DNA from: Opitutaceae bacterium
GTDB lineage: Bacteria; Verrucomicrobiota; Verrucomicrobiia; Opitutales; Opitutaceae
Direction: 5' to 3'
NCBI GenBank assembly: GCA_003164715.1
Contig: PLTZ01000055.1
Coordinates: 1 to 43,195 of the forward strand
Length of the DNA stretch: 43,195 nucleotides
The notes beneath the pieces are model-generated. The model searched no databases. It saw only the letters and a list, made by a program, of their open reading frames with translations, and was not told the DNA's origin. Shown here one piece after another: positions 3,203 to 43,007 of the stretch. Both the position numbers and the translations under genes were made by a program. How positions within the stretch are numbered: position 1 is the first letter of the stretch; each line of letters begins with the position of its first letter.

Positions 3203-5002
3203 TTAGCGCTCGACAAGGGCCACCTCGAAAGGCTTGAGCGAAAGGGCCACCTCGGTGCCGACCTGTTTCCACTGCTCCCTGCCCTCCTCGGTGCGGGTGA
3301 CGACGAGAGTGTCCCCGTTCATCCGCTCGCGCCAGCCCCCGAGCGGGGCGTCGGCCGGAAGGTGCAGCGCAACCTTCGCCACGGTGTCGTTCATGTTGTA
3401 GAGGACATACTGCCTCTCTCCAAAGGGATAGAGGGCGACGCCCCCCATGCCGACCAGGCGCACGCCGAGTTCCTCAAAGAAGACGCGGCGCACGGCGTTG
3501 AGCACCGGCTCCGGCAGCCGCAGGAGGTCGTAGCTGTTGTCGGGCAGGTTGAGCACGTCGACCGTGCCCTCCATGTAGGGCGTGGACAAAAGGACGCCGA
3601 AGTCCGCGTCCTCCCGAATGAGCGCCACGCTGCGCACGTACGGCCAGGTCGAGAGCTGGATCTTGGGGAAGGTGAACGGCCGGCCGGCGGCGACGGGTTC
3701 CGTGTCCCAGAAGGCGCCGCGCACGCGGAACGACGACGAGGTCGCGGTGCCGCGATCAGCGATGACGTTCATCACCCGGCCGAGCTCACTCGCCCGGAGG
3801 TCCTGCAGGAGCGGCCAGCTCATGAAGACCTCCTTGCCGGCGCGGATACGCGCCAGGAGCTTGGCCGCAAGCTGCGGGTCGCGCAGCGAATGCTGCGTGA
3901 AGATGGCGGCCTTGGCGTCCGCGGGGAACGCCGCCGTGGGCGCCATCGGAAGCCCGATCATGCCCAGGTAGCCGAAGATGTTGTACTCGCCCGTGGACCC
4001 GAGCGGCAGGTGGATCGGGATCCCGCGGGCGGGGCCCTCCAGCATCCCCGCAAGCCTGTCGAAGTCGCCCATCCGCGCGCAGAGGGCCGGGTAGACGTCC
4101 GAGGCGGGGACCGGCGGGTGGAGCTGGCCCGCGCACCAGAAGATGATCTCGGGGGCCCGCGCAAGGACCGCCTGCCAGACCTCGGCCAGGTAGTCGTTTG
4201 CGTCGCCCTGCATCCCGTAGTTGTCGAGCCACGCGCTGCGCCACTTGGGGCCCGCGTCGCCGCCGATCCACCGCTGGAAGACGTAGCCCGAGTAGATCGG
4301 GATGTGCTGCTCGTCGGTGGCCCGCTGGCGCGTCTCGATGCCGACGCTCACGCCGTCGAACTGCGGCGTCTGGAGCGCGACATCATAGCCGTTCTGGCGG
4401 TGCCCCTCGTACCAGTTCGGGTACTTGATGATGACGGTCGCCCTGGGGTTCACCTGCTTTGCGACGTCGATCAGGTGCCTCTTCGACTGCTCGTGGACGA
4501 GCCGGCTCCTGTAGTCGGCCCAGGATTCGCTGCCGCGCCCGGCCACGCACTTTTCGCAGGTGCAGGTCGTGAAGAGCCAGTCGTCCACGATGATCTCGTC
4601 CACCGCCTGGGCCAGCACGCGCACCCGGCCCTCAAGGAGCGCCATGTCCTCCGCACTGTTGTAGCAGAGGGGGCCCTTCTCCCCGGCCGGGACGACGGCC
4701 CCGGAGACCTGGAGCCCCCGGGCGCGCAGGTCCGCGGCGATCCCGCGAAGGACGGCCACCGCCGCCGGGTCGCCGCTCGCGCTGTCGAGGTAGACCTTCG
4801 AGAGGCGAAGCGGCGCGAAGTACTCGAGGGCGGCCTGGCGGTCCGCCGGCTTCGCCAGCAGGTTCTCCACATCCTCGCTCGTGAAGAAGAGGGCGGTCGT
4901 CAGGTGCTGCCAGCGGGCCCCGGCGGGCGCCGGCTCGGCCCGAAGCGGCCCCCAGACTAGCGAAAGGCCCCCTGCCAAGAGGACGGAGGCGATGCGGCGC
5001 AT
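3203..5002 (-). CDS. Secreted glycosidase-like TIM-barrel protein, unknown specificity
   Basis: The 599-residue product starts with a signal peptide (MRRIASVLLAGGLSLVWG, cut near LRAEP), which is why the start at 5002 is preferred over the longer ATG at 5044. The body looks like a glycoside-hydrolase-type barrel. It has an EIIVDDW strand followed by a CTCEKC cysteine cluster near residue 145, then IIKYPNW, and IIFWCAG near residue 270. The end (GVALYPFGERQYVLYNMN onward) resembles the beta-sandwich found at the C-terminus of many glycosidases. No family with a known substrate is recognised, and catalytic residues cannot be assigned. Acidic candidates include the DD pair in VDDW. The likely location is the periplasm or outside the cell. 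It may be co-transcribed with the NHL gene downstream. Confidence 0.8.
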   Translation of the reverse strand: MRRIASVLLAGGLSLVWGPLRAEPAPAGARWQHLTTALFFTSEDVENLLAKPADRQAALEYFAPLRLSKVYLDSASGDPAAVAVLRGIAADLRARGLQVSGAVVPAGEKGPLCYNSAEDMALLEGRVRVLAQAVDEIIVDDWLFTTCTCEKCVAGRGSESWADYRSRLVHEQSKRHLIDVAKQVNPRATVIIKYPNWYEGHRQNGYDVALQTPQFDGVSVGIETRQRATDEQHIPIYSGYVFQRWIGGDAGPKWRSAWLDNYGMQGDANDYLAEVWQAVLARAPEIIFWCAGQLHPPVPASDVYPALCARMGDFDRLAGMLEGPARGIPIHLPLGSTGEYNIFGYLGMIGLPMAPTAAFPADAKAAIFTQHSLRDPQLAAKLLARIRAGKEVFMSWPLLQDLRASELGRVMNVIADRGTATSSSFRVRGAFWDTEPVAAGRPFTFPKIQLSTWPYVRSVALIREDADFGVLLSTPYMEGTVDVLNLPDNSYDLLRLPEPVLNAVRRVFFEELGVRLVGMGGVALYPFGERQYVLYNMNDTVAKVALHLPADAPLGGWRERMNGDTLVVTRTEEGREQWKQVGTEVALSLKPFEVALVER

Positions 5003-9046: not shown

Positions 9047-11440
9047 TCAGAACTGCGGCTGGTTGTTCGCCGGGTCGTTGAGGAGCGCCTCGAACCGCGG
9101 GTCGCCGCGCAGCGCCCGGAAGCAATTCCCGAACCAGATCCCGTCCCGCGCGGTGTGCACGTTCACCCCCGAGAACGGGACCTTGAGGAGCCGGGCGATT
9201 TCCGCAAGGGCACGGTCCTTCTCCCCAAGCTGGGCCAGCACCGAGGCGTGGATCCCCGCGTAGGTCGGCCCATCGATCGCGTCGCGCGACTCGGGTACCA
9301 GCTCCATCGCCTTCTCGCTGCAGCGGATCGCCTCGTCCTTCTCCCCCTTGATGGCGCGCGCCACGGCCAGGTTCGCCCAGAGCGACGCATTCGAGGGCTG
9401 GCTCGCGAGTTCGGCCGTCATCGCCGCGAGCGCCGAATCGGCGCGGGCCCTCGCCGCGTCCCTGTCGCCCGCCTCCAAGAGGACCTGCGCCGCGTCCACG
9501 TCCTGCTGCCAGCGCGTGTAGCCCAGACCCTCGACATAGGGGCGCTCCCGGTCGAGCCGCGCGGCCTCGGCCAGGTCGCCCCGGGCCCGCGCGGAGATCT
9601 TCAACGACCACGCAAGGATCTCGGAATCCGCGGGGTCGAACTTCCGGCTGAGCGCCGACTGGAGCTCATCTGCCGAGCCGTCGCGAAGGAACCCGCAGAT
9701 TCCCACGAAGATCGAGGGAAGGACCTTTTCGGGAGACGCCTGCACGAGCCGCCGGCCGAGGGCCAGGCCCTCGTCGAAGTGGCGTGTGTTGAACAGGAAC
9801 TGCATGAACTCCTGGCCGTGATGAAGGTCCGCGGGATCAAGCTCCATCGCGCGGCGGAAGTTGACGAGCGAATCGGCCCAGTGGCCCTGCCTGCGGTGGA
9901 TGAGCGCCAGGGAGTAGTACATGACCGGGTCGTTGGGCCTTAGCTGGGCAAGGCGCAGGTACTGCTCGGCCGCGCGGGCGTAGTCGCGGTAGCCGTAGTA
10001 GTAGTAGTCCCCGGTGTCCTCGATCACCGCCGGGTCGTCGGGCGCCACGCGGTTGGCCGTCTCGATCGCCTCCTTCGCCTTCGCGAGGCGCAGGTCGGTG
10101 TGGTCCTCGTCGTCAAAGAAGACGAAGGCCTGGTACGACCCGAGCTCCGCCCAGGCCGCCGCAAACTTCGGGTCGAGCGCGACGGCTGAACGCAGGAGGG
10201 GCTCGATGACCGCGAGCGACCCGAGGTCGTTGCGCATCTTGCGGGCCTTGAGGTACAGGTCGTACGCCTCGGTGCTGTCGGTCGGGCGCCGCTCCAAGAG
10301 CGCCTTCTCCTCAGGCGAGATGGCGGCGCTGAGCGCCCCCGCGATCGCCTGGGAGAGCTCCCCCTGGATCGCGAAGATGTCGGTGATATCCCGGTCGTAG
10401 GACTTGGCCCAGATGTGCTCGTCCGTGGCCGCACGGATCAGCTGGCCCGTGACGCGGACCTTGTTGCCGGCCCGGCGCACGCTCCCCTCGAGGATGTACG
10501 CGACGCCCAGCTCCTTCGCGATCTCGCGGATCGGCTTTGTCGCCCCGCGGTACTGCATGACCGAGGTCCGCGACACGACCCGCAACCCCTTCACGAGCGC
10601 GAGGTTTGTCAGGATGTCCTCGTGGATCCCGTCGGCGAAGAAGGCGTTGGTGTCCTTGTCCTCGCTCATGTTCTCGAACGGGAGGACGGCGACCGACTTG
10701 TCGGAAACGGCCGGGGCTGCGGTCGGCGGCGGCGCGCTTTCCCTCCCCGCGTCCGCCTTCTCGGCCGCGGCGGTCGCCTGCGATGCAATCGTGGTCGCCG
10801 CCGCTACCAGGCGGGCGACCTCCTCGGGGCTGCGGCGCGGCCTGAGCAAAAGGTAGGCGACCACTCCCGCAACGAGAACGGCAAAGCAGCCCAGGATGAC
10901 GAGAGGGGCGTGGCTTCGGTGGCCGGCCGGGGCGGGAGCGGCGGCGGCCTTCGCCGGCGGCGCCGGGGCGCGGCTTCCCGCAGCCTTCTTCGGCGCCTCG
11001 AGGAGCCCCTTCACCTGCTCCACGAACTGGGAGCTCGGCACACCGTGCCTAAGCTGGGTCCACTGGTAGCGCAGGAACTCCTCGGGCACCATGGCCTCGT
11101 CCGCGGGGGTGTCGTCCACGACCACGGGCACGATGAAGGGCACCCCGTGGGCCATGTCCTTCGTTCGCTCGACGCCCATGTTCCACTCACGCCGGAAGTA
11201 GCCCTCTCCCCTCGCCTGCGTCCGGGCCGAGATGAGCGGCATGAAGAGCGCGCACTCGCGAATCTGCCGCCTTATCTTCTGGTCCCAGGCGTCCCCGCCT
11301 CGAAGCTCCGCCTGGTCGAACCACACTTCGATGCCGAAGGCCCGCAGGGCGTCGGCGATGCGGCGGGCCTGCTCAACGTCCTCCCTGGCGTAGCTCAGGA
11401 AGACGGCTGGGCCCGGCTGGGTGGTGGAACTCTCCGGCAT
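9047..11440 (-). CDS. TIR domain, TM helix, FlgO/TolB-N-like domain and TPR repeats
   Basis: The 797-residue product starts at 11440 (MPESSTTQPG), giving a TIR domain directly at the N-terminus; the 94 extra codons upstream are low-complexity. The TIR domain (10-150) has AVFLSYAREDVEQA, GIEVWFDQAELRGGDAW, and GYFRREWN. Glu85 sits where NAD-cleaving TIR domains have their catalytic Glu. A Pro/Ala linker leads to one TM helix (about 179-199). Next is a FlgO/TolB-N-like domain (249-370) with VAVLPFENMSEDKD, FFADGIHEDI and ILEGSVRRAGNKVRVTGQL. TPR-type helices fill the rest. This is a receptor-like layout with the domains probably on opposite sides of the membrane. A paralogue with the same order lies at 40704-43007. 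Enzyme activity and ligand are unknown. Confidence 0.9.
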   Translation of the reverse strand: MPESSTTQPGPAVFLSYAREDVEQARRIADALRAFGIEVWFDQAELRGGDAWDQKIRRQIRECALFMPLISARTQARGEGYFRREWNMGVERTKDMAHGVPFIVPVVVDDTPADEAMVPEEFLRYQWTQLRHGVPSSQFVEQVKGLLEAPKKAAGSRAPAPPAKAAAAPAPAGHRSHAPLVILGCFAVLVAGVVAYLLLRPRRSPEEVARLVAAATTIASQATAAAEKADAGRESAPPPTAAPAVSDKSVAVLPFENMSEDKDTNAFFADGIHEDILTNLALVKGLRVVSRTSVMQYRGATKPIREIAKELGVAYILEGSVRRAGNKVRVTGQLIRAATDEHIWAKSYDRDITDIFAIQGELSQAIAGALSAAISPEEKALLERRPTDSTEAYDLYLKARKMRNDLGSLAVIEPLLRSAVALDPKFAAAWAELGSYQAFVFFDDEDHTDLRLAKAKEAIETANRVAPDDPAVIEDTGDYYYYGYRDYARAAEQYLRLAQLRPNDPVMYYSLALIHRRQGHWADSLVNFRRAMELDPADLHHGQEFMQFLFNTRHFDEGLALGRRLVQASPEKVLPSIFVGICGFLRDGSADELQSALSRKFDPADSEILAWSLKISARARGDLAEAARLDRERPYVEGLGYTRWQQDVDAAQVLLEAGDRDAARARADSALAAMTAELASQPSNASLWANLAVARAIKGEKDEAIRCSEKAMELVPESRDAIDGPTYAGIHASVLAQLGEKDRALAEIARLLKVPFSGVNVHTARDGIWFGNCFRALRGDPRFEALLNDPANNQPQF

Positions 11441-11537
11441 GGGACACGCAGCTACCTGACAGGCAGGGCGATGCCTTGCGAGTCCAAAGCCGCGCCGAAT
11501 CGGCCCTCTGCCGGCGCCAGGCCAGGGGTCTCCTTCC

Positions 11538-12698
11538 TTAGGCGTACGTGCACTTCCGGGCTTCGTCGGCAAAGGCCTCAAGAAGCTCCGGATCCGCGTC
11601 GAAGAAATGATCGGACGGCGACAAGATGAACCCCCCGCCGCCCCCGGCCTCGGCGAAGCACCGCCGAACCTCCGCCCGCGTCTCCTTCGGGGTGCACCGC
11701 GTGAAGAAGCGCAGCTGGTCAAAGCCGCCGATCATGCAGACTTTGGAGCCGATCCGGCGCTTGGCCTCGGCAAGGTCGGCGTCGCCCCCCATGGCGGCCG
11801 GCGTAAAGGTCTCCATGGCGTCGGGTCCCATGGCCGCGATGCGCTCGAGGAGCGGCATCATCCCGCCGCAGGTGTGGTAGACGATCCGCTGGCCCGCGGC
11901 GTGGGCCGCCTCGATTATGTCCCTGTCGTAGGGCGCCACGAACCGCTCGAAGATCGCGGGCGAGATCACGGTCGAGGAGGCCGCCCCCCCGCCGAGCTCG
12001 ATCACGTCGTAGCGGGCGCCCGCGAGCGAGCGGGCATAGACGAGCTTGCGGCGCTGGAGGATCCCCAGGAACTCGTGGACCCACACGGGATCGTCGTACG
12101 TCTCGAGGATCAGCCGCTCGATCCCCGCCAGGCACGCCGCGTCCTGCCAGCAGCCCGGCTGCCCGAAGGCGTCGAACGTGCACATGTGGCTCCGGATGAT
12201 CCCCCGCTCGCCGAACGCGTCGGCCGCGCGGTTGACCGCGCCCACGTCGCACTTAGGCGCGGGCATGAACGCACCCAGGAGGTCGATGTCGCTCTTCTCC
12301 TTGATCAGGTGCTCGGCCACCCAGGTCGTGTAGGCGTTCGACTGCAGGACCATGGAGAGCTCGCCGCCCGGCGTGAAGAACCGAAACCGCTGGGCCTGGA
12401 ATTCGGTGCCGGGAAGGTCCTCGATCGAGATTCTCCAGGCATCCGTCACCACCCGGCGGGCCTCCAGGAAGCCGATCTTCCCCTGGACCGGGTCGTATCT
12501 TTCGCCCAGGGACTCGTCCGGCCGGTGCTCGACGACCCAGTCGATGGCGTCGAGATCGAGCGCGTCGAAGAACTCGCGGCTGTCCGCCCCCTTGAAGAAC
12601 TCCCGGAGGTAGGACTGCATCAGGTGGTGGGTCGTCACCGGCAGCCGGTCGGGGACCTGCCGGTTGAGCGCGCACAGCATCCGTTGTCGTGAGGTCAT
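11538..12698 (-). CDS. URO-D family protein (cobalamin methyltransferase-like)
   Basis: The 386-residue product belongs to the uroporphyrinogen decarboxylase superfamily. It starts MTSRQRMLCALNRQVPDRLP, a form typical of the MtaA/CmuA-like branch rather than HemE. It has IVYHTCGGMMPLLERI, where His-x-Cys matches the zinc-binding motif of methylcobamide:thiol methyltransferases, and later IGGFDQLRFF and FILSPSDHFFDADPE. HemE would instead show its conserved arginine and aspartate motifs near the N-terminus. The substrate is unknown. The start at 12698 is used because the longer frame runs through the GH26 gene. It follows the GH26 gene after 193 bp containing strong hairpins. Such URO-D-like genes are frequent in Verrucomicrobiota and their jobs are mostly unproven. 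Confidence 0.82.
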   Translation of the reverse strand: MTSRQRMLCALNRQVPDRLPVTTHHLMQSYLREFFKGADSREFFDALDLDAIDWVVEHRPDESLGERYDPVQGKIGFLEARRVVTDAWRISIEDLPGTEFQAQRFRFFTPGGELSMVLQSNAYTTWVAEHLIKEKSDIDLLGAFMPAPKCDVGAVNRAADAFGERGIIRSHMCTFDAFGQPGCWQDAACLAGIERLILETYDDPVWVHEFLGILQRRKLVYARSLAGARYDVIELGGGAASSTVISPAIFERFVAPYDRDIIEAAHAAGQRIVYHTCGGMMPLLERIAAMGPDAMETFTPAAMGGDADLAEAKRRIGSKVCMIGGFDQLRFFTRCTPKETRAEVRRCFAEAGGGGGFILSPSDHFFDADPELLEAFADEARKCTYA

Positions 12699-33949: not shown

Positions 33950-35119
33950 CTAGGCGGACCCCTGCAGTTCTTGGAGGAACGTTTCGAGGTCGGCTGCCCT
34001 GACCCCGGGTGCCAGTGCCGCGGTCCCGGCAGGCGTCCTCGATGGCCGATGCACGAGCCACATTTCCGCTCGCTCCCCTAGAGTCCGACCCAGTGACAGC
34101 AGCGGCCGAGCCATAGACGGCGCGGGCGTGCGGGTCGCTTGAACCTCCACTAACCGCAATTTCCCCCGCGGACCGGGAAGAACAAAATCTATCTCCAACC
34201 CTTGTTCATCCCGAAAGTAGTAGAGCTCCCTCTTTCCCCCGGCATTGATCTGGAGCTTGATGATCTCTGCGGCAACGAATCCCTCCCAGAGTGCGCTATA
34301 GAACGGCGAGCGCTCGAGTTCAGAGCGGGACCGCAAGCCCAGCAAATGCGACGCCAGGCCTGAATCCAGCCAATACAGGCGTGGCGATTTGAGCAGCCGT
34401 TTCCCGAAGTTCTCGAAATACGGTGGAATCAACGCCAAAAGCCCGGTCGTTTCCAAGACCCCCATCCACTGCGCGATTGAGGGAACGGAAACCCCGAGCG
34501 GCCCGGCCAAGTCAGTCTTGTTGAGAATCTGCCCGTGCCGGCTCGCGACCAGTCCCATGAACCGCCGGAAGGTCGCCAGGTCTCTCACCTGTGTCACCGC
34601 ACGCACGTCGCGTTCGAGATACGTCTGCAGGTACGAGCTAAACCACAGGTCCCGGGCGCCGGGCCGCGCGATGACCTCCGGGAAGCCTCCCAGCCACAAA
34701 TCCACCTTTGGACTTTCCTGCACACTTAGCGGCAGCAAGTGCAGAATCGCCGCGCGACCTGCCAGCGACTCGCTTACCCGCTGCATCAATGCGGATTCCT
34801 GGGAGCCGGTGAGGAACCACTGGCCGGTCTTTCTGGGCGCCGCATCTATTCGTGTGCGAACATAGGCCAGCAGTTCCGGCGCATTTTGAATCTCATCGAG
34901 TATGACCGGCAGCTTGAGCTCGTCGAAGAATCCGCGGGGATCGGCCCGCACGCGCGCCAGGACGTCGGGATCCTCCAGCAAGCGGTAGTCCGCGCCGGGG
35001 AGCACATGCCGGAGAAGCGAGGTTTTCCCAACCCGCCGGGGTCCGGTAAGGACGACCGCGGGAAAATTTCGGCGTGCCTTCAGTAAGGCAGTCTCTAGCG
35101 TTCTCGGCAGAAAGCGCAT
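33950..35119 (-). CDS. AAA family ATPase with DUF4143
   Basis: The 389-residue protein has an N-terminal AAA_14 ATPase with Walker A GPRRVGKTS (near residue 30), Walker B LPVILDEIQNAP (near 75) and sensor WFLTGSQES (near 105). A DUF4143 domain follows, with LWEGFVAAEIIK and a nuclease-like core LYYFRDEQGLEIDFVL. Such genes are widely spread by horizontal transfer and are linked to mobile DNA and toxin-antitoxin-like loci; their real job is unproven. The ATG at 35119 is used instead of the TTG at 35131. Its DNA is lower in GC than its neighbours. Confidence 0.9.
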   Translation of the reverse strand: MRFLPRTLETALLKARRNFPAVVLTGPRRVGKTSLLRHVLPGADYRLLEDPDVLARVRADPRGFFDELKLPVILDEIQNAPELLAYVRTRIDAAPRKTGQWFLTGSQESALMQRVSESLAGRAAILHLLPLSVQESPKVDLWLGGFPEVIARPGARDLWFSSYLQTYLERDVRAVTQVRDLATFRRFMGLVASRHGQILNKTDLAGPLGVSVPSIAQWMGVLETTGLLALIPPYFENFGKRLLKSPRLYWLDSGLASHLLGLRSRSELERSPFYSALWEGFVAAEIIKLQINAGGKRELYYFRDEQGLEIDFVLPGPRGKLRLVEVQATRTPAPSMARPLLSLGRTLGERAEMWLVHRPSRTPAGTAALAPGVRAADLETFLQELQGSA

Positions 35120-35273
35120 CTGAGGAAACAAACATCTGGCTTTAGGACACTCAAACCAATTATGCGCGGCAGACTGCTTGGATTGTCGCGTGCCACTAGC
35201 CTATTCGGGTGCCTGAGCGCTTGTCACGTGTCACCAAACTTATAACGATCATACCCATCGAGACGCTCGACCT

Positions 35274-37544: not shown

Positions 37545-38933
37545 TTAGAAGGCGGCATTGCCCGGGGTCCGGGCAAACGGGATCACGTCGCGGATGTTCG
37601 AGACACCCGTGGCGAACATGAGCATCCGCTCGAACCCGAGGCCGAAGCCCGCGTGCGGCACGGTGCCCCACCTTCGCAGGTCCATGTACCAGCCGTAGTC
37701 CCTGGGATCGAGGCCGTGCCTCTTGATGCTGGCCTCGAGGACGTCCGGGCGCTCCTCGCGCTGGCTCCCGCCCACGATCTCGCCAATCCCGGGGACGAGA
37801 ACGTCCATCGCGGTCACCGTCTTCTCGTCGTCGTTGAGCCTCATGTAGAAGGGCTTTATCTCCTTCGGGTAGTTGTAGACCGTCACCGGGCACTTGAACA
37901 CGGTCTCGGTCAGGTACCGCTCGTGCTCCGACTGGAGGTTGGTCCCGTAGGCGACCGGGTGCTCGAAGGTCCGGCCGCTGTCCACGAGCAGCTTAACGGC
38001 CTCCGTGTAGCTCACCCTCTGGAACGGCCGCTCGAGGACAAAGTCGAGGCGCGCAAGGAGCTCCTTGTCCACGAATTTGGCGAAGAGTTCGAGGTCGTCC
38101 GCGCCGCCGGTGCGTGCCTCGCGGATCAGCGCCTTCACGAACTCCTCCGCCAGGTCCATGTCGCCCGCGAGGTCGCAGAACGCCATCTCCGGCTCGATCA
38201 TCCAGAACTCGCTCGCGTGGCGCGACGTGTTCGAGTTCTCCGCCCGGAACGTGGGGCCAAAGGTGTAGACCTTGGACAGCGCGCACGCGAACGCCTCGGC
38301 CTCCAACTGCCCGCTCACGGTCAGGTACGTCGGGCGCCCGAAGAAATCCTTCGAATAATCGACAGACCCCTCAGGCGTCTTCGGCGGGGCCGCGGGATCG
38401 AGCGTCGTCACCCGGAACATCTCCCCCGCCCCCTCGCAGTCGCTCCCGGTGATGATGGGCGCGTGCAGGTAGACAAAACCCCTCTCGTTAAAAAACCTGT
38501 GGACGGCGAACGCGAGCCGGCTCCGCATGCGGAAGACGGCCCCAAAGAGGTTCGAGCGGGGGCGGATATGGGCGATCTCCCGGAGGAATTCCGGAGTATG
38601 CCCCTTCTTCTGGAGGGGATAGGCGGCATCCGAGGGCCCTACGATGGTGACCTCCTCGGCGCTAAGCTCCCACTTCTGACCCTGCCCCTGAGACGCCACC
38701 AGCCGTCCGCGCACGGAGACCGAGGCCCCAGTGATGATGTGCTGCACCTCGGAGTAATTGCCCAGGGTCGACGGGGCTATCACCTGCAGATTGCGCAGGC
38801 AGGAGCCGTCATTGACCTCCAGGAACGAGAAGGTCTTCGCGTCCCGCCGGGTTCGCACCCAGCCCTGGACAATCGCGTTATCTCGCGGAGCCGTGCTCGC
38901 GAGCGCCTCTTGAACCGTGATCGGCTTTTGCAT
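37545..38933 (-). CDS. asnS: Asparaginyl-tRNA synthetase
   Basis: The 462-residue class II synthetase has the OB-fold anticodon domain ([19 protein letters not shown] near residue 25). Motif 1 sits around [20 protein letters not shown] (near 148). Motif 2 is [29 protein letters not shown], near 220-250. Motif 3 is [16 protein letters not shown] near the end. The length and the [15 protein letters not shown] segment are typical of AsnRS rather than AspRS. It is essential for loading asparagine onto its tRNA. It is followed closely by tyrosine phenol-lyase. Confidence 0.97.
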
Positions 38934-39292: not shown

Positions 39293-40618
39293 TCAGAGCC
39301 GCTTGATGCTGGCAAACTTGATCACTCCCTTGCCGGCGCCGAGCGATCGGTCGAACACCGCGAAATAGTTATTCATCAGCGGCAGCCCGAGGATTGACTG
39401 GTTGACCGGATTGCCCGCGGGCCGGATCTGAAAAACACTCCGGCCCGGCGCGGGATGTTGGTCCTGCCAGTAGCTCTCGGGCAAACACGTAAGCTTGACC
39501 GGTTTCCCGTCGGAGCCCTTGAGGAAGAAGTTGAGGCGGGGCCATTCCGTCAGCTTGACCGCGGACGAAGGCACGCTCCCCTGACCCGCCTGCTGGATGA
39601 GGCGGATAAACCGGGGGTTCAGCTTGGCGAGGGACTCGAGCACCCCTTGGCAGACGTCGTTGGCCAGGACGAGGACGTTGGTGCCGGAGTCGACGATGGA
39701 GTTGGATATCGAGCCCGCGCGGTATTGGCCCTGCAACCGGCCGGCCTTAACGGCCGGGCAACCGTCAACCTGCACCGCCAGGAGGTCGGTGTTGTAATAG
39801 ACGTCGTGCACAACCGCTACCTTCTTGAAGCTGCCGGAGTAGAGGTCCTTTTGCTCTTCACCCCCGCCCAGGACGAAGTAGCCGTGGTTCTGCGGATCAC
39901 GGGCGATGGCAGCCGGCTGCCGGCTAGCCATCCGCACCCAGGAACGCAGCGTGTAAAATGCGAACTTGTTCATCGCCAGCCCCTGGGATTCCAGCTCGGT
40001 GAAATAGGGCTCCACGCTCGCGTGGAGCGCATCCCGGGCGGCGACCAGCTTAGCGAAATGATTCCAGCGGGTGGCGAAGTCCCCGGCCTCGAAGGGCCAG
40101 GGATAGGTGACGGGCGGGTTCACCTTCTGCTTCGTCAGGTGACGTCGCAGGTCGACGGCGTCGTTCAGGCTCTGGTAGGCCAGGCCCAGGATGCCGTCCA
40201 CCCCGATGAAATCGTCCTTGGACCGGGACACGGTGATGGCGATCGGCGCGTGCTTCAGGCTCGCTCCCTCGCCTGCCGGGTCCCCAAGCATCAGGCTCGT
40301 CTTGATGACGGGTCCAAGCCATTCGCCTGTTCCATACTTGACCCGCTGCGCGAGTGAACTTGGCCCCATGTCGGTGTCCTCTGACGCCTTGTAGACGGAC
40401 GGCACCACGGCCAGCGTGCTGCTGCCGGTATCGAGGATCAGGTTGGCGGCGACTTGCCGGCTGCCGACCAGGATCCGGGCGGTGAAGTCGTTCCCGCTAT
40501 GGATGTTGGTAATCGGGACCCGAAGCGTCCTGGGAGCGCCGCGCCGCTTCGGGCCGGCGGACGGCTTGCGGGCCTTCGGGGACGCAGCCGGCTTCTTCCG
40601 ACGGGCTTTCGCTTTCAT
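39293..40618 (-). CDS. Pepsin-like (family A1) aspartic protease without signal peptide
   Basis: The 441-residue protein is a two-lobed pepsin homologue. LILDTGSSTLAVVPS holds the first catalytic Asp63 and SIVDSGTNVLVL the second, Asp310. YGTGEW at 95-100 matches the flap with its tyrosine, and DGILGLAY at 141-148 is the classic pepsin segment. QSILGLPLMNNYFAVFDR near the end matches the pepsin C-lobe. It has no signal peptide, no visible prosegment and few cysteines. The first 35 residues are Lys/Arg/Pro/Ala-rich and probably disordered. A cytosolic protease is therefore likely, as described for the rare bacterial shewasins. It lies 85 bp downstream of the second TIR gene on the same strand. 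Confidence 0.9.
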   Translation of the reverse strand: MKAKARRKKPAASPKARKPSAGPKRRGAPRTLRVPITNIHSGNDFTARILVGSRQVAANLILDTGSSTLAVVPSVYKASEDTDMGPSSLAQRVKYGTGEWLGPVIKTSLMLGDPAGEGASLKHAPIAITVSRSKDDFIGVDGILGLAYQSLNDAVDLRRHLTKQKVNPPVTYPWPFEAGDFATRWNHFAKLVAARDALHASVEPYFTELESQGLAMNKFAFYTLRSWVRMASRQPAAIARDPQNHGYFVLGGGEEQKDLYSGSFKKVAVVHDVYYNTDLLAVQVDGCPAVKAGRLQGQYRAGSISNSIVDSGTNVLVLANDVCQGVLESLAKLNPRFIRLIQQAGQGSVPSSAVKLTEWPRLNFFLKGSDGKPVKLTCLPESYWQDQHPAPGRSVFQIRPAGNPVNQSILGLPLMNNYFAVFDRSLGAGKGVIKFASIKRL

Positions 40619-40676
40619 CGTGCCCGAGGGATAGACCAGCTCGGGAAGCGAGGGAACTCCAAAGCTGGCAGGCGCC

Positions 40677-40682
40677 CTTATA
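40677..40682 (-). promoter_or_regulatory. Possible -10 box for the pepsin-like gene
   Basis: TATAAG is present on the minus strand in the 85 bp between the TIR gene and the protease gene. No good -35 box lies at the right distance. If real, it would let the protease be transcribed separately. Confidence 0.25.
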
Positions 40683-40703
40683 TGTGCCCTTTCCCCGGAC
40701 GTC

Positions 40704-43007
40704 CTAGAAAAGGGTGGCTTGGTTGGCGGGGTTGCGCAGGAGCGCCTCGAAGCGGGGGTCACCGTGAAAAGGAAGGTAAAGCGGATCGAACCGCAGCGCA
40801 TAGACGTTCAGCTGGTCGTTGGGCACCGTGATCAGCCTCGCCAGATCACGAAGGCCCTCGTCCTTTTGGCTGTTCCAGCCCTGGACGGCTGCAAGGACGA
40901 TGCTGAACATCTCGCTGCCGATCCGGTCCTGGGCCATCGGCGTCAGCTGCACCGCCTTCTGCGCCGCCTGGAGCGCCGCGTCGGAATGCCCTAGGATCGA
41001 TTCCATGACCGCAAGGAACATGAGGTATATCGCGTTGTCCGGCTCGAGGGCGGATTTCGAGCGCAGCTCGGCCGCAAACGGGGCAACCTGCTCCCGCGCC
41101 GCCGGGTAGTCCCCGTTAAGCGCAATGAGGTCCATCGCCAGATCCACCGCCTGCACGAAATGCGGCGCCCCGTCCTCGTCGAAGAACGGCTGGACCTTGT
41201 CGAGCCGGACAGCCTCGGCGAAGTCCCCCTTGGTCCGGGCCCAGCTCCGGCGCAGGTTGAGGCCCCGGGGCGATTTGGCCCTGGATTCCGGCAGGCCGGC
41301 AAAGAACGCGTCCGTCTCGCGGGTCGACCCGTGCGCATAGAAAGCCAGCGCCACCAAGTCGTAGGCCTTTGGGAGATCGTCCGGGTCGCGGTCGAGTTGG
41401 CGCCGCTTTTCCAGCGCCGCCTCCTCGTAGCGGCGGACCCGATAGAGGCTGTCGAACAGGTCGTCGCTGTATGAGCCGTTGGCCGGATCGAGCTGGGCGG
41501 CCTTGCGCAAGTTAGAGATGGACGTCCCCCAGTCGCCTTGGCGCCGCTCGATGAGCCCGATGGAGGAATAGACCGTGGCGTCATTCGGCCTCTGGACCGC
41601 AAGGCGCTGGAATTCCTTCAGGGCGCGCGGATAGTCGAGGCGGGCGTAATAGTAGAAATTTCCCAGGTCCTTGATCACGCCCGGCAGATCGGGCGCGAGC
41701 CGGACCGCCCGGTCGATCGCCGCCTGGGCCTCGGCAAGGCGCGCGGCGCTGTGGTCGTAATTGGCGAACACATTGTAGGCGTGGCACACGGCCAGGTCGC
41801 CCCACGCCTCCGCGAAGTTCGGGTCGAGGTCGACGGCGCCCCGCAGGAGCTCCTCCTGGCGCTTCTGGGACATCGGCGTCTGCCCGCCGTCGTTCTGGAT
41901 CTGGCGCGCCTTGAGCCACAGGTCGTAGGCGGCGAGGTTCTCGGTCGGGTGCCGCTCGATGAGCTTTTGGCTCGTGGGAGAGATCGCGGCCTGCAACGCA
42001 CTTGCGATCGCCTGAGCGAGCTCGCTCTGGATCGCGAAGATTTCATTCAGGTTCCGGTCGAACGCCTTAGCCCATACCTGCCGGTCGGTGCGGGCATCGA
42101 TCAACTGGCCGGTGACGCGGACCATGTTGGCCGCGCGCCGCACGCTGCCCTCCAGCACGAAAGCGACGCCGAGCTCCCGGCCAATCTCCTTGATCGACTT
42201 CGTGGTCCCGCGGTACTGCAGGACAGAGGTCCGGGAGGTGACATGCAGGCCGGGGATGACGGAAAGGTTCGTCAGCACGTCTTGGTGCACGCCGTCGCTG
42301 AAGAATCCGTTGTCCTTATCTGCGCTCATGTTCTCGAAAGGCAGAACGGCGACGGACTTGCTGTCGACGGCCGCGGCCGGGGTCGCGACTGCGGGTAAGG
42401 GACTGGACGGCTTCGGAGAACAAAGGAGGATCAGGAGGGATAGGGCGATTGCCGCCGCTGCGGCCGCGGCGGCGCCGATCGCCCAGCGGCGGCCGCCCGA
42501 AGCTGATCGCTCGGGGAGCGAGAGCGGCCGTTGACCGCGTTCCCCCAGCTCGACGGGCTCCTGGAGCAGCCGCTTCACTTCCCTTACAAACTCGTGCGTC
42601 GGTCGCGCCCCAGGCAGACGCATCCATTGCACGCGCAGAAACTCCGCCGGCACGAGCGCCGCGCCCTGAGGCGTCTCGTCGACCACGACCGGAGCCAGGA
42701 ACGGCACCCCCTCGGCCATGTGGTGCGTACGCTCCACCGCCAGCTTCCACTCCAGGCGGAAATACCCCTCCTTGCGCGCCTGAGCGCGCGCCGAGATCAC
42801 AGGCAGGAAGAGCGCGCAGGTCTTGATCTGGCGCCGGATCTTCTCGTCCCAGGCATCCCCGCCCCTGAGCTCACCCTGGTCCAGCCAGACCTCGATGCCG
42901 GAGGCTCTGAGCAAATCGCAAATCTGCCTGGCCGCCTCCGCGTCCTGCGAGGCGTAGCTTATAAAGACCGCCCCATGGGGGGTCCCGGTATGGGCGCTGT
43001 CGGGCAT
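40704..43007 (-). CDS. Second TIR domain, TM helix, FlgO/TolB-N-like domain and TPR protein
   Basis: The 767-residue protein has the same order as the one at 9047-11440. The TIR domain (12-150) includes AVFISYASQDAEAA, GIEVWLDQGELRGGDAW and GYFRLEWK, with Glu86 in the likely catalytic position. One TM helix (about 174-197) is preceded by positive residues and followed by few, which places the TIR domain in the cytosol. The FlgO/TolB-N-like domain follows with VAVLPFENMSADKD, FFSDGVHQDV and VLEGSVRRAANMVRVTGQL, then TPR helices to the end. Both paralogues end with GDPRFEALL and a short tail. The pepsin-like gene follows after 85 bp. Confidence 0.9.
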   Translation of the reverse strand: MPDSAHTGTPHGAVFISYASQDAEAARQICDLLRASGIEVWLDQGELRGGDAWDEKIRRQIKTCALFLPVISARAQARKEGYFRLEWKLAVERTHHMAEGVPFLAPVVVDETPQGAALVPAEFLRVQWMRLPGARPTHEFVREVKRLLQEPVELGERGQRPLSLPERSASGGRRWAIGAAAAAAAAIALSLLILLCSPKPSSPLPAVATPAAAVDSKSVAVLPFENMSADKDNGFFSDGVHQDVLTNLSVIPGLHVTSRTSVLQYRGTTKSIKEIGRELGVAFVLEGSVRRAANMVRVTGQLIDARTDRQVWAKAFDRNLNEIFAIQSELAQAIASALQAAISPTSQKLIERHPTENLAAYDLWLKARQIQNDGGQTPMSQKRQEELLRGAVDLDPNFAEAWGDLAVCHAYNVFANYDHSAARLAEAQAAIDRAVRLAPDLPGVIKDLGNFYYYARLDYPRALKEFQRLAVQRPNDATVYSSIGLIERRQGDWGTSISNLRKAAQLDPANGSYSDDLFDSLYRVRRYEEAALEKRRQLDRDPDDLPKAYDLVALAFYAHGSTRETDAFFAGLPESRAKSPRGLNLRRSWARTKGDFAEAVRLDKVQPFFDEDGAPHFVQAVDLAMDLIALNGDYPAAREQVAPFAAELRSKSALEPDNAIYLMFLAVMESILGHSDAALQAAQKAVQLTPMAQDRIGSEMFSIVLAAVQGWNSQKDEGLRDLARLITVPNDQLNVYALRFDPLYLPFHGDPRFEALLRNPANQATLF

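Follow-up and report, generated by a model that had tools for sequence, protein, structure and literature searches.

A pepsin-type aspartic protease gene lying behind a TIR-TPR gene in an Opitutaceae genome adds to a rare bacterial branch of family A1

Family A1, to which pepsin belongs, is mainly eukaryotic. Rawlings and Bateman described seven bacterial A1 homologues in 2009, none with a predicted signal peptide, and the parts of that report used here predict neutral activity for the cytosolic members (PMC2761423). By subtraction of the residue numbers given there, the first catalytic Asp and the flap residue are 32 residues apart in the proteins of Colwellia, S. amazonensis, S. denitrificans and S. 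loihica and 47 apart in S. sediminis (pepsin, 43), and the two catalytic Asp residues are separated by 264 residues in Colwellia, 245 in S. amazonensis, 250 in S. denitrificans, 358 in S. loihica and 323 in S. sediminis (pepsin, 183). Shewanella and Colwellia carry Leu at position 303, and six of the seven bacterial homologues carry Ala at position 218 (PMC2761423). According to the sections of Leal and colleagues (2016) drawn on here, shewasin D is a monomeric, pepstatin-sensitive acid protease with a pH optimum of 3.5–4 and a mainly cytosolic location, shewasins A and D are both acid enzymes that lack a prosegment, the characterised bacterial homologues are active at pH 3.5–4.5, and shewasin A is inactive at pH 6; a latent form activated by local acidification was suggested (PMC4814920). 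A sequence-only reading of the DNA analysed below had stressed that few bacterial cases are described and had treated the control of a protease without a prosegment as a puzzle. The bacterial part of that claim stands, and the surprise was overstated: because signal-less A1 proteins were reported in 2009 (PMC2761423) and cytosolic shewasin D in 2016 (PMC4814920), a cytosolic, prosegment-free state is, by what these two sources say, a known rule and not a new puzzle of this gene.

The window, by which we mean the whole 43,195-nucleotide stretch analysed (Opitutaceae bacterium, contig PLTZ01000055.1 of assembly GCA_003164715.1), contains a 441-amino-acid open reading frame on the minus strand at 39293–40618, with its ATG at 40618 and its stop codon ending at 39293. 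We found that the product matches PF00026 at 51.3 bits (E = 1.5e-13; curated cut-off 19.9 bits) in two stretches over both lobes, which places it in A1, and that these two lobe hits are the only PF00026 matches in its own genome. Among solved structures, phmmer ranked BACE-2 first (E = 7.5e-14) and BACE-1 next, and these memapsins (A1A) are the best PDB matches of the bacterial family as well, a profile of five members reaching BACE-2 at 5.3e-27. The BACE-2 alignment spans both lobes and pairs the DTGSS, VKY..G.W.G flap and IVDSGT stretches. Matches this far beyond chance identify the protein, at the level of sequence, as a genuine bacterial A1 (pepsin) homologue, as the earlier reading had held on the strength of four motifs, all of which are present in the translated frame.

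These motifs, all on the minus strand, are the first catalytic motif DTGSS (D63, codons 63–67, 40418–40432), the flap YGTG (Y95, codons 95–98, 40325–40336), the segment DGILGLAY (codons 141–148 beginning with D141, 40175–40198), which includes the first psi-loop motif ILG (143–145), and the second catalytic motif DSGTN (D310, codons 310–314, 39677–39691). A second psi-loop motif, ILG (409–411), is followed by Leu at what comparison with the available description in PMC2761423 indicates is the pepsin 303 position (ILGL, codons 409–412, 39383–39394, minus strand). The protein thus holds two hh-D-[ST]-G motifs, a flap Tyr and two hydrophobic-hydrophobic-Gly motifs, with 32 residues from first Asp to flap Tyr (63 to 95) and 247 from Asp to Asp. 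It has three Cys residues, whereas the relatives L008, L010 and L011 have none (eight rows listed). AlphaFold models from a five-row alignment were poor both for this protein (mean pLDDT 40.4) and for the relative L010 (37.0). Compared with its closest relative, L007, 402 of 435 residues are identical and dN/dS is 0.27 (40 synonymous, 34 non-synonymous changes); the protease body is under purifying selection.

The frame remains open upstream of 40618 as far as an ATG at 40801, from which translation would begin with the hydrophobic stretch MRCGSIRFTFLFTV. This signal-like start was rejected, the stretch being absent from the corresponding frame of L007, where the in-frame sequence upstream of the protease is the end of a TIR protein whose stop codon precedes the ATG by 28 codons. 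Because the 40801 extension overlaps the end of the upstream TIR gene, in another frame, and is not conserved in L007, the ATG at 40618, common to the window and L007, is the likely start. The leader hairpin before this ATG has a z score of −0.94 in the window and −2.24 in L007. Hydropathy over 9 residues peaks at 0.67 for segments that begin within the first 40 residues, nothing in the protein resembles a membrane stretch (maximum 19-residue hydropathy 1.2), and hydropathy, start conservation and the family alignment revealed neither a signal peptide nor a prosegment. With a start that is not signal-like and no membrane-like stretch, the protein is very probably cytosolic. The absent signal peptide and prosegment and the apparent cytosolic location had both been anticipated; the former is borne out by all three lines of evidence and the latter graded probable from the hydropathy and the likely start.

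Codons 1–32 (40523–40618, minus strand) encode a basic tail with 13 Lys or Arg residues and no Asp or Glu. Such tails, of 32–57 residues before an R-x-P motif, occur only in the clade of the window protein, L007, L008 and L009, and their sequence is not conserved among the members that have one; 8 of the 12 members compared lack a tail and start 5–7 residues before R-x-P (for L038–L042 and L053 we chose the start, at a Met just upstream). These observations contradict the earlier proposal that the tail replaces a signal peptide and prosegment. We also considered the tail as an electrostatic prosegment, and the data did not support this, eight relatives being tail-less and the body of the window protein itself being basic (net +9, pI 9.3); an inhibitory role is unlikely for the latter reason. 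Without their tails L008 and L009 are acidic, as are L010 and L011 over their full length (pI 4.4–5.4). Between the window and L007 the tail alone has 1 synonymous and 4 non-synonymous changes (ratio 1.6) and so shows no constraint, from which it follows that a docking role receives no support from selection.

The relatives were found by several searches. A protein search matched the window's own genome and no other, both among 372 genomes sampled from the order and among 387 from the phylum, and a PF00026 search matched 1 of 57 relatives and 2 of 384 genomes drawn from the class. The second class member, G467, is identical in DNA to L010, a Verrucomicrobia groundwater MAG (100% over 3525 bp), and a two-row profile matched 1 of 146 relatives of G467, namely G467 itself. 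A scan of named genomes with two peptide patterns, which gives a lower bound, produced 143 pattern matches of which five were confirmed: L007 (Acidobacteriaceae, 91% identical in the scan), L008 (Planctomycetales, 47%), L009 (Proteobacteria, 46%), L010 (Verrucomicrobia, 36%) and L011 (Acidisphaera sp. S103, a record not labelled as a MAG, 35%). The confirmed relatives are mostly MAGs, and record names may be wrong. Among 193 relatives of the L011 genome a five-row profile then matched six, and among 398 relatives of the L007 genome it matched three, the query genome included in each count; one of the latter, L054, is a gene fragment, perhaps the remains of a decayed copy, that carries SNSIVDSGTN within a frame of 95 codons. 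The total is 11 relatives, 31–92% identical, and this one fragment. Scans of viral, phage and plasmid collections yielded no relative (two of these gave 28 pattern matches each, none confirmed). The gene is rare, and its distribution is sporadic and probably horizontal. The relatives, identified by sequence match, are new, five of them being filed under Acidobacteriaceae, Planctomycetales, Proteobacteria, Verrucomicrobia and Acidisphaera, and among the open-licence PMC papers listed in literature searches there was no report of A1 proteases from Acidobacteria, Verrucomicrobia or Planctomycetes.

How does this protein compare with the described systems? Like shewasins A and D and the Colwellia protein, it is a bilobal A1 protein without signal peptide or prosegment, has BACE-1 and BACE-2 as its nearest eukaryotic kin, and is encoded by a gene that occurs sporadically among close relatives. 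By the published descriptions available, it also shares their Leu at 303, and its spacings resemble theirs: Asp to flap is 32 in four of the five oceanic homologues and 32 here, and Asp to Asp is 245–264 in three of them and 247 here. On the same published basis position 218 differs, being Thr (DSGT) in the window protein and Ala in the marine proteins, and comparison through published features, not sequences, also sets the window protein apart by its 32-residue basic tail and its occurrence in other phyla. The homologues of Sinorhizobium medicae and Marinomonas are likewise bacterial A1 proteins without a signal peptide, but are described in the parts of the report used here as having Phe75, flap spacings of 44 and 46 and no psi-loop motifs, in contrast to the Tyr, the spacing of 32 and the two psi-loop motifs found here (PMC2761423). 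Unlike BACE-1 and BACE-2, the window protein lacks a signal peptide, a prosegment and a membrane anchor, and has only three Cys. It shares the catalytic motifs and psi-loops of pepsin and pepsinogen, and differs from pepsin in having no zymogen segment, in its spacings (32 versus 43 and 247 versus 183, the pepsin values again by subtraction from the partial source) and in being presumably cytosolic. The PE-PGRS C-terminal domain (PF20729) is another bacterial, aspartyl peptidase-like domain; it gave a weak, below-cut-off match to L009 (1e-5) and none to the window protein at E up to 1.

We tentatively favor, at somewhat less than an even chance for the whole, a latent, acid-dependent cytosolic endopeptidase for which pH is the main brake. 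Its parts are individually firmer: judged from its sequence the protein is likely an active protease, and if it is both active and cytosolic then, by analogy with the shewasins, pH is somewhat favored as the main brake. On this proposal the protein would belong to the shewasin/BACE-like branch as a monomeric A1 endopeptidase with two lobes, made in mature form in the cytosol, with pH rather than a prosegment keeping its activity in check; we infer the pH brake because characterised bacterial homologues work at pH 3.5–4.5 and shewasin A does not at pH 6. Its activity would be confined to times when part of the cytoplasm turns acidic (under acid or electrophile stress, upon loss of proton-motive force, or in dying cells) or to a few preferred substrates, with cleavage between bulky hydrophobic residues. 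In members that have one, the basic tail would serve for docking to membrane, nucleic acid or a partner, or be dispensable, and would not be an inhibitor. Counting against this explanation is the basic body of the window protein, set beside the acidic L008–L011 proteins.

A different view of the same fold, which we consider improbable, is that the protein is a pseudoprotease that has retained the A1 architecture for peptide or partner binding. The case for it comes from elsewhere in the family. In a midpoint-rooted tree without outgroup, covering 12 bacterial proteins (only the fragment L054 was left out, and shewasin and eukaryotic sequences were not part of it), three clades were resolved: the window protein with L007, L008 and L009 (support 100/99), L010 with L053 (100/99), and L011 with its five relatives L038–L042 (100/100); the row of the window protein was marked by the tree tool as unusual in letter composition. 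Both catalytic Asp residues are present in 12 of 12 members. The flap residue is Tyr in five and Phe in six, the latter being all of the L011 (Acidisphaera-type) clade, with L007 unreadable at unread bases. The residue after the second D-[ST]-G is Thr in seven, Asn in two, Ser in two and Ala in one (L042), and within the L011 clade it is Asn or Ala in three of six. This part of the family, with its flap Phe and drifting second motif, may have lost activity. In the window protein, on the other hand, D63, Y95, D310, T313 and the two psi-loop motifs are all retained, and the same holds for L008, L009, L010 and L053; the window protein's dN/dS against L007 also speaks against the idea. Asp-to-flap spacing is 32 in 10 of the 12 (29 in L038; L007 reads 31 across unread bases), and the stretch after DGILGLAY (codons 153–203 in the window, 40010–40162, minus strand) is 51–53 residues long in the window clade only and 30–31 elsewhere, some 20 residues shorter. 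The A1 gene is convergent with an adjacent di-haem cytochrome gene at all six loci of the L011 clade, the cytochrome being RoxA-like by Pfam in the two tested, L011 and L038; this setting differs from that of the window gene, and among the neighbouring genes compared there was none that different clades had in common.

Alternatively, the protein could be a neutral-pH protease with a narrow substrate range that works constantly in the cytosol, as renin does in blood; this, too, is an unlikely reading. It agrees with the prediction by Rawlings and Bateman for cytosolic members and, by their description as available, with the replacement of Asp303 by Leu, which the window protein has in common with Shewanella and Colwellia (PMC2761423). 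Against it, shewasins A and D proved to be acid enzymes in the relevant sections of PMC4814920, and Ala218, the residue tied to neutral activity, is Thr in the window. We prefer the latent acid protease to a renin-like enzyme because of the acid optimum of the shewasins, and Thr218 would fit an acid enzyme. With Thr in place of Ala at this position, the pH behavior of the marine proteins may not carry over to the window protein.

The genomic setting raises a further, rather doubtful explanation, namely a two-gene module in which a TIR-transmembrane-TPR protein detects a signal and then makes a nucleotide messenger or depletes NAD, while the protease executes or amplifies the response in stress- or phage-induced cell death. 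Directly upstream of the protease, on the same strand, lies a gene for a 767-amino-acid protein (40704–43007, minus strand) with a TIR domain placed first (PF13676, 7.9e-21), a membrane segment at about residues 177–195 and then TPRs. The genes are separated by 85 bp (40619–40703, minus strand), in which simple consensus scans found no terminator- or promoter-like site. The same pair recurs in L007, with 92.6% DNA identity over 3605 bp and a gap equal in length to within one base. The TIR domain partially matches defence-system TIR effectors (best PADLOC E = 3.9e-11) and the solved bacterial TIR structure 7uxr (5.7e-5). Between the window and L007, dN/dS is 0.25 for the TIR gene and 0.27 for the protease, each gene taken as a whole being under purifying selection; divergence is greater over codons 1–135 of the TIR gene (dS 0.58, versus 0.16–0.25 further on).

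Several findings weigh against such a module. The protease matches no PADLOC defence family at E up to 0.01. Only L007 has a TIR gene near the protease, and none was seen at the other 10 of 11 loci (L008–L011, L038–L042 and L053; 4–17 kb around each, 4 kb for L053). At least 7 of the 12 other genomes of the genus encode full-length TIR-TPR homologues, and those genomes have no PF00026 match; the TIR-TPR search matched 13 of 13 genus genomes, some only through TPRs or the TIR domain. TIR-TPR genes are thus numerous in the genus, and the window itself has a second one at 9047–11722 (minus strand), a paralogue of the first without an adjacent protease. A recent transfer, moreover, would carry any neighbors along, and the L007 linkage crosses a two-base N run inside the protease gene. 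A working link between the protease and the TIR gene is possible, and among the open-licence PMC papers listed in literature searches there was no report of a TIR-pepsin pair.

Has the pair moved? A transketolase on the L007 contig shares only 46% identity with its counterpart in the window genome (one gene tested), so at least this part of the contig is not from the window's genus. In L007, GC3 is 0.84 for the TIR-protease block and 0.71 for two neighbors (transketolase and glucoamylase); in the window it is 0.84–0.85, as against 0.89 and 0.93 in two downstream genes. These values suggest that the pair was transferred into an acidobacterial contig, unless the L007 contig is chimeric or misbinned. 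L007 has three two-base N runs, one within the protease gene (4572–4573). It is across these unread bases that the TIR gene and the beginning of the protease gene connect with the remainder, which itself runs on into the following genes with no further unread base up to 11357. An AAA_14/DUF4143 ATPase gene lies directly behind the protease in L007 (5738–6942) and about 4 kb away in the window (33950–35154, minus strand; 85% DNA identity); the GC3 of the window copy, 0.72, is low by the standard of the window, and the gene has a match at 1e-96 to PDC-S01, a PADLOC candidate family. Downstream of the window protease is an asparaginyl-tRNA synthetase gene (37545–38933, minus strand), not part of the system. 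It has a close homologue in 1 of 12 sister genomes (G012, 86% identical), the other genus matches listed being 28–35% identical; over the 12 kb taken, it is all that the window shares with G012, and no clean empty site was apparent.

A bolder version of the pairing, in which a mobile module would combine a membrane-spanning TIR-TPR receptor with an acid-activated cytosolic pepsin, collapse the energy supply through its TIR activity, acidify the cytoplasm, switch on the zymogen-free pepsin and so kill or reset the cell, strikes us as very unlikely. That the gene came recently from a eukaryote, or that eukaryotic DNA contaminates the assembly, can be set aside as highly improbable: family A1 is mainly eukaryotic and the other 56 relatives searched had no match, but the frame is uninterrupted on a contig of bacterial genes, the 1-kb blocks over the gene have a GC of 0.60 and 0.65, the contig as a whole averaging 0.66, the neighboring AsnRS has its 86%-identical counterpart in a sister genome, and the 11 relatives are bacterial, the eukaryotic sequences searched being those of the PDB only.

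Bacterial pepsins had been known from a few Proteobacteria, marine or plant-associated; going by record names, these findings add Acidobacteria, Planctomycetes and Verrucomicrobia, together with more Proteobacteria. If no assembly or binning error is involved, the presence of a copy with 92.6% identity in a contig assigned to a different phylum shows that these genes move between phyla. The gene is thus a rare one of a known kind, and what gives it value is the wider family, together with a possibly mobile pairing with a TIR gene, of which there is one further instance. The family is now large enough to ask how a zymogen-less acid protease stays safe in the cytosol, and it also allows the origin of pepsins to be asked.
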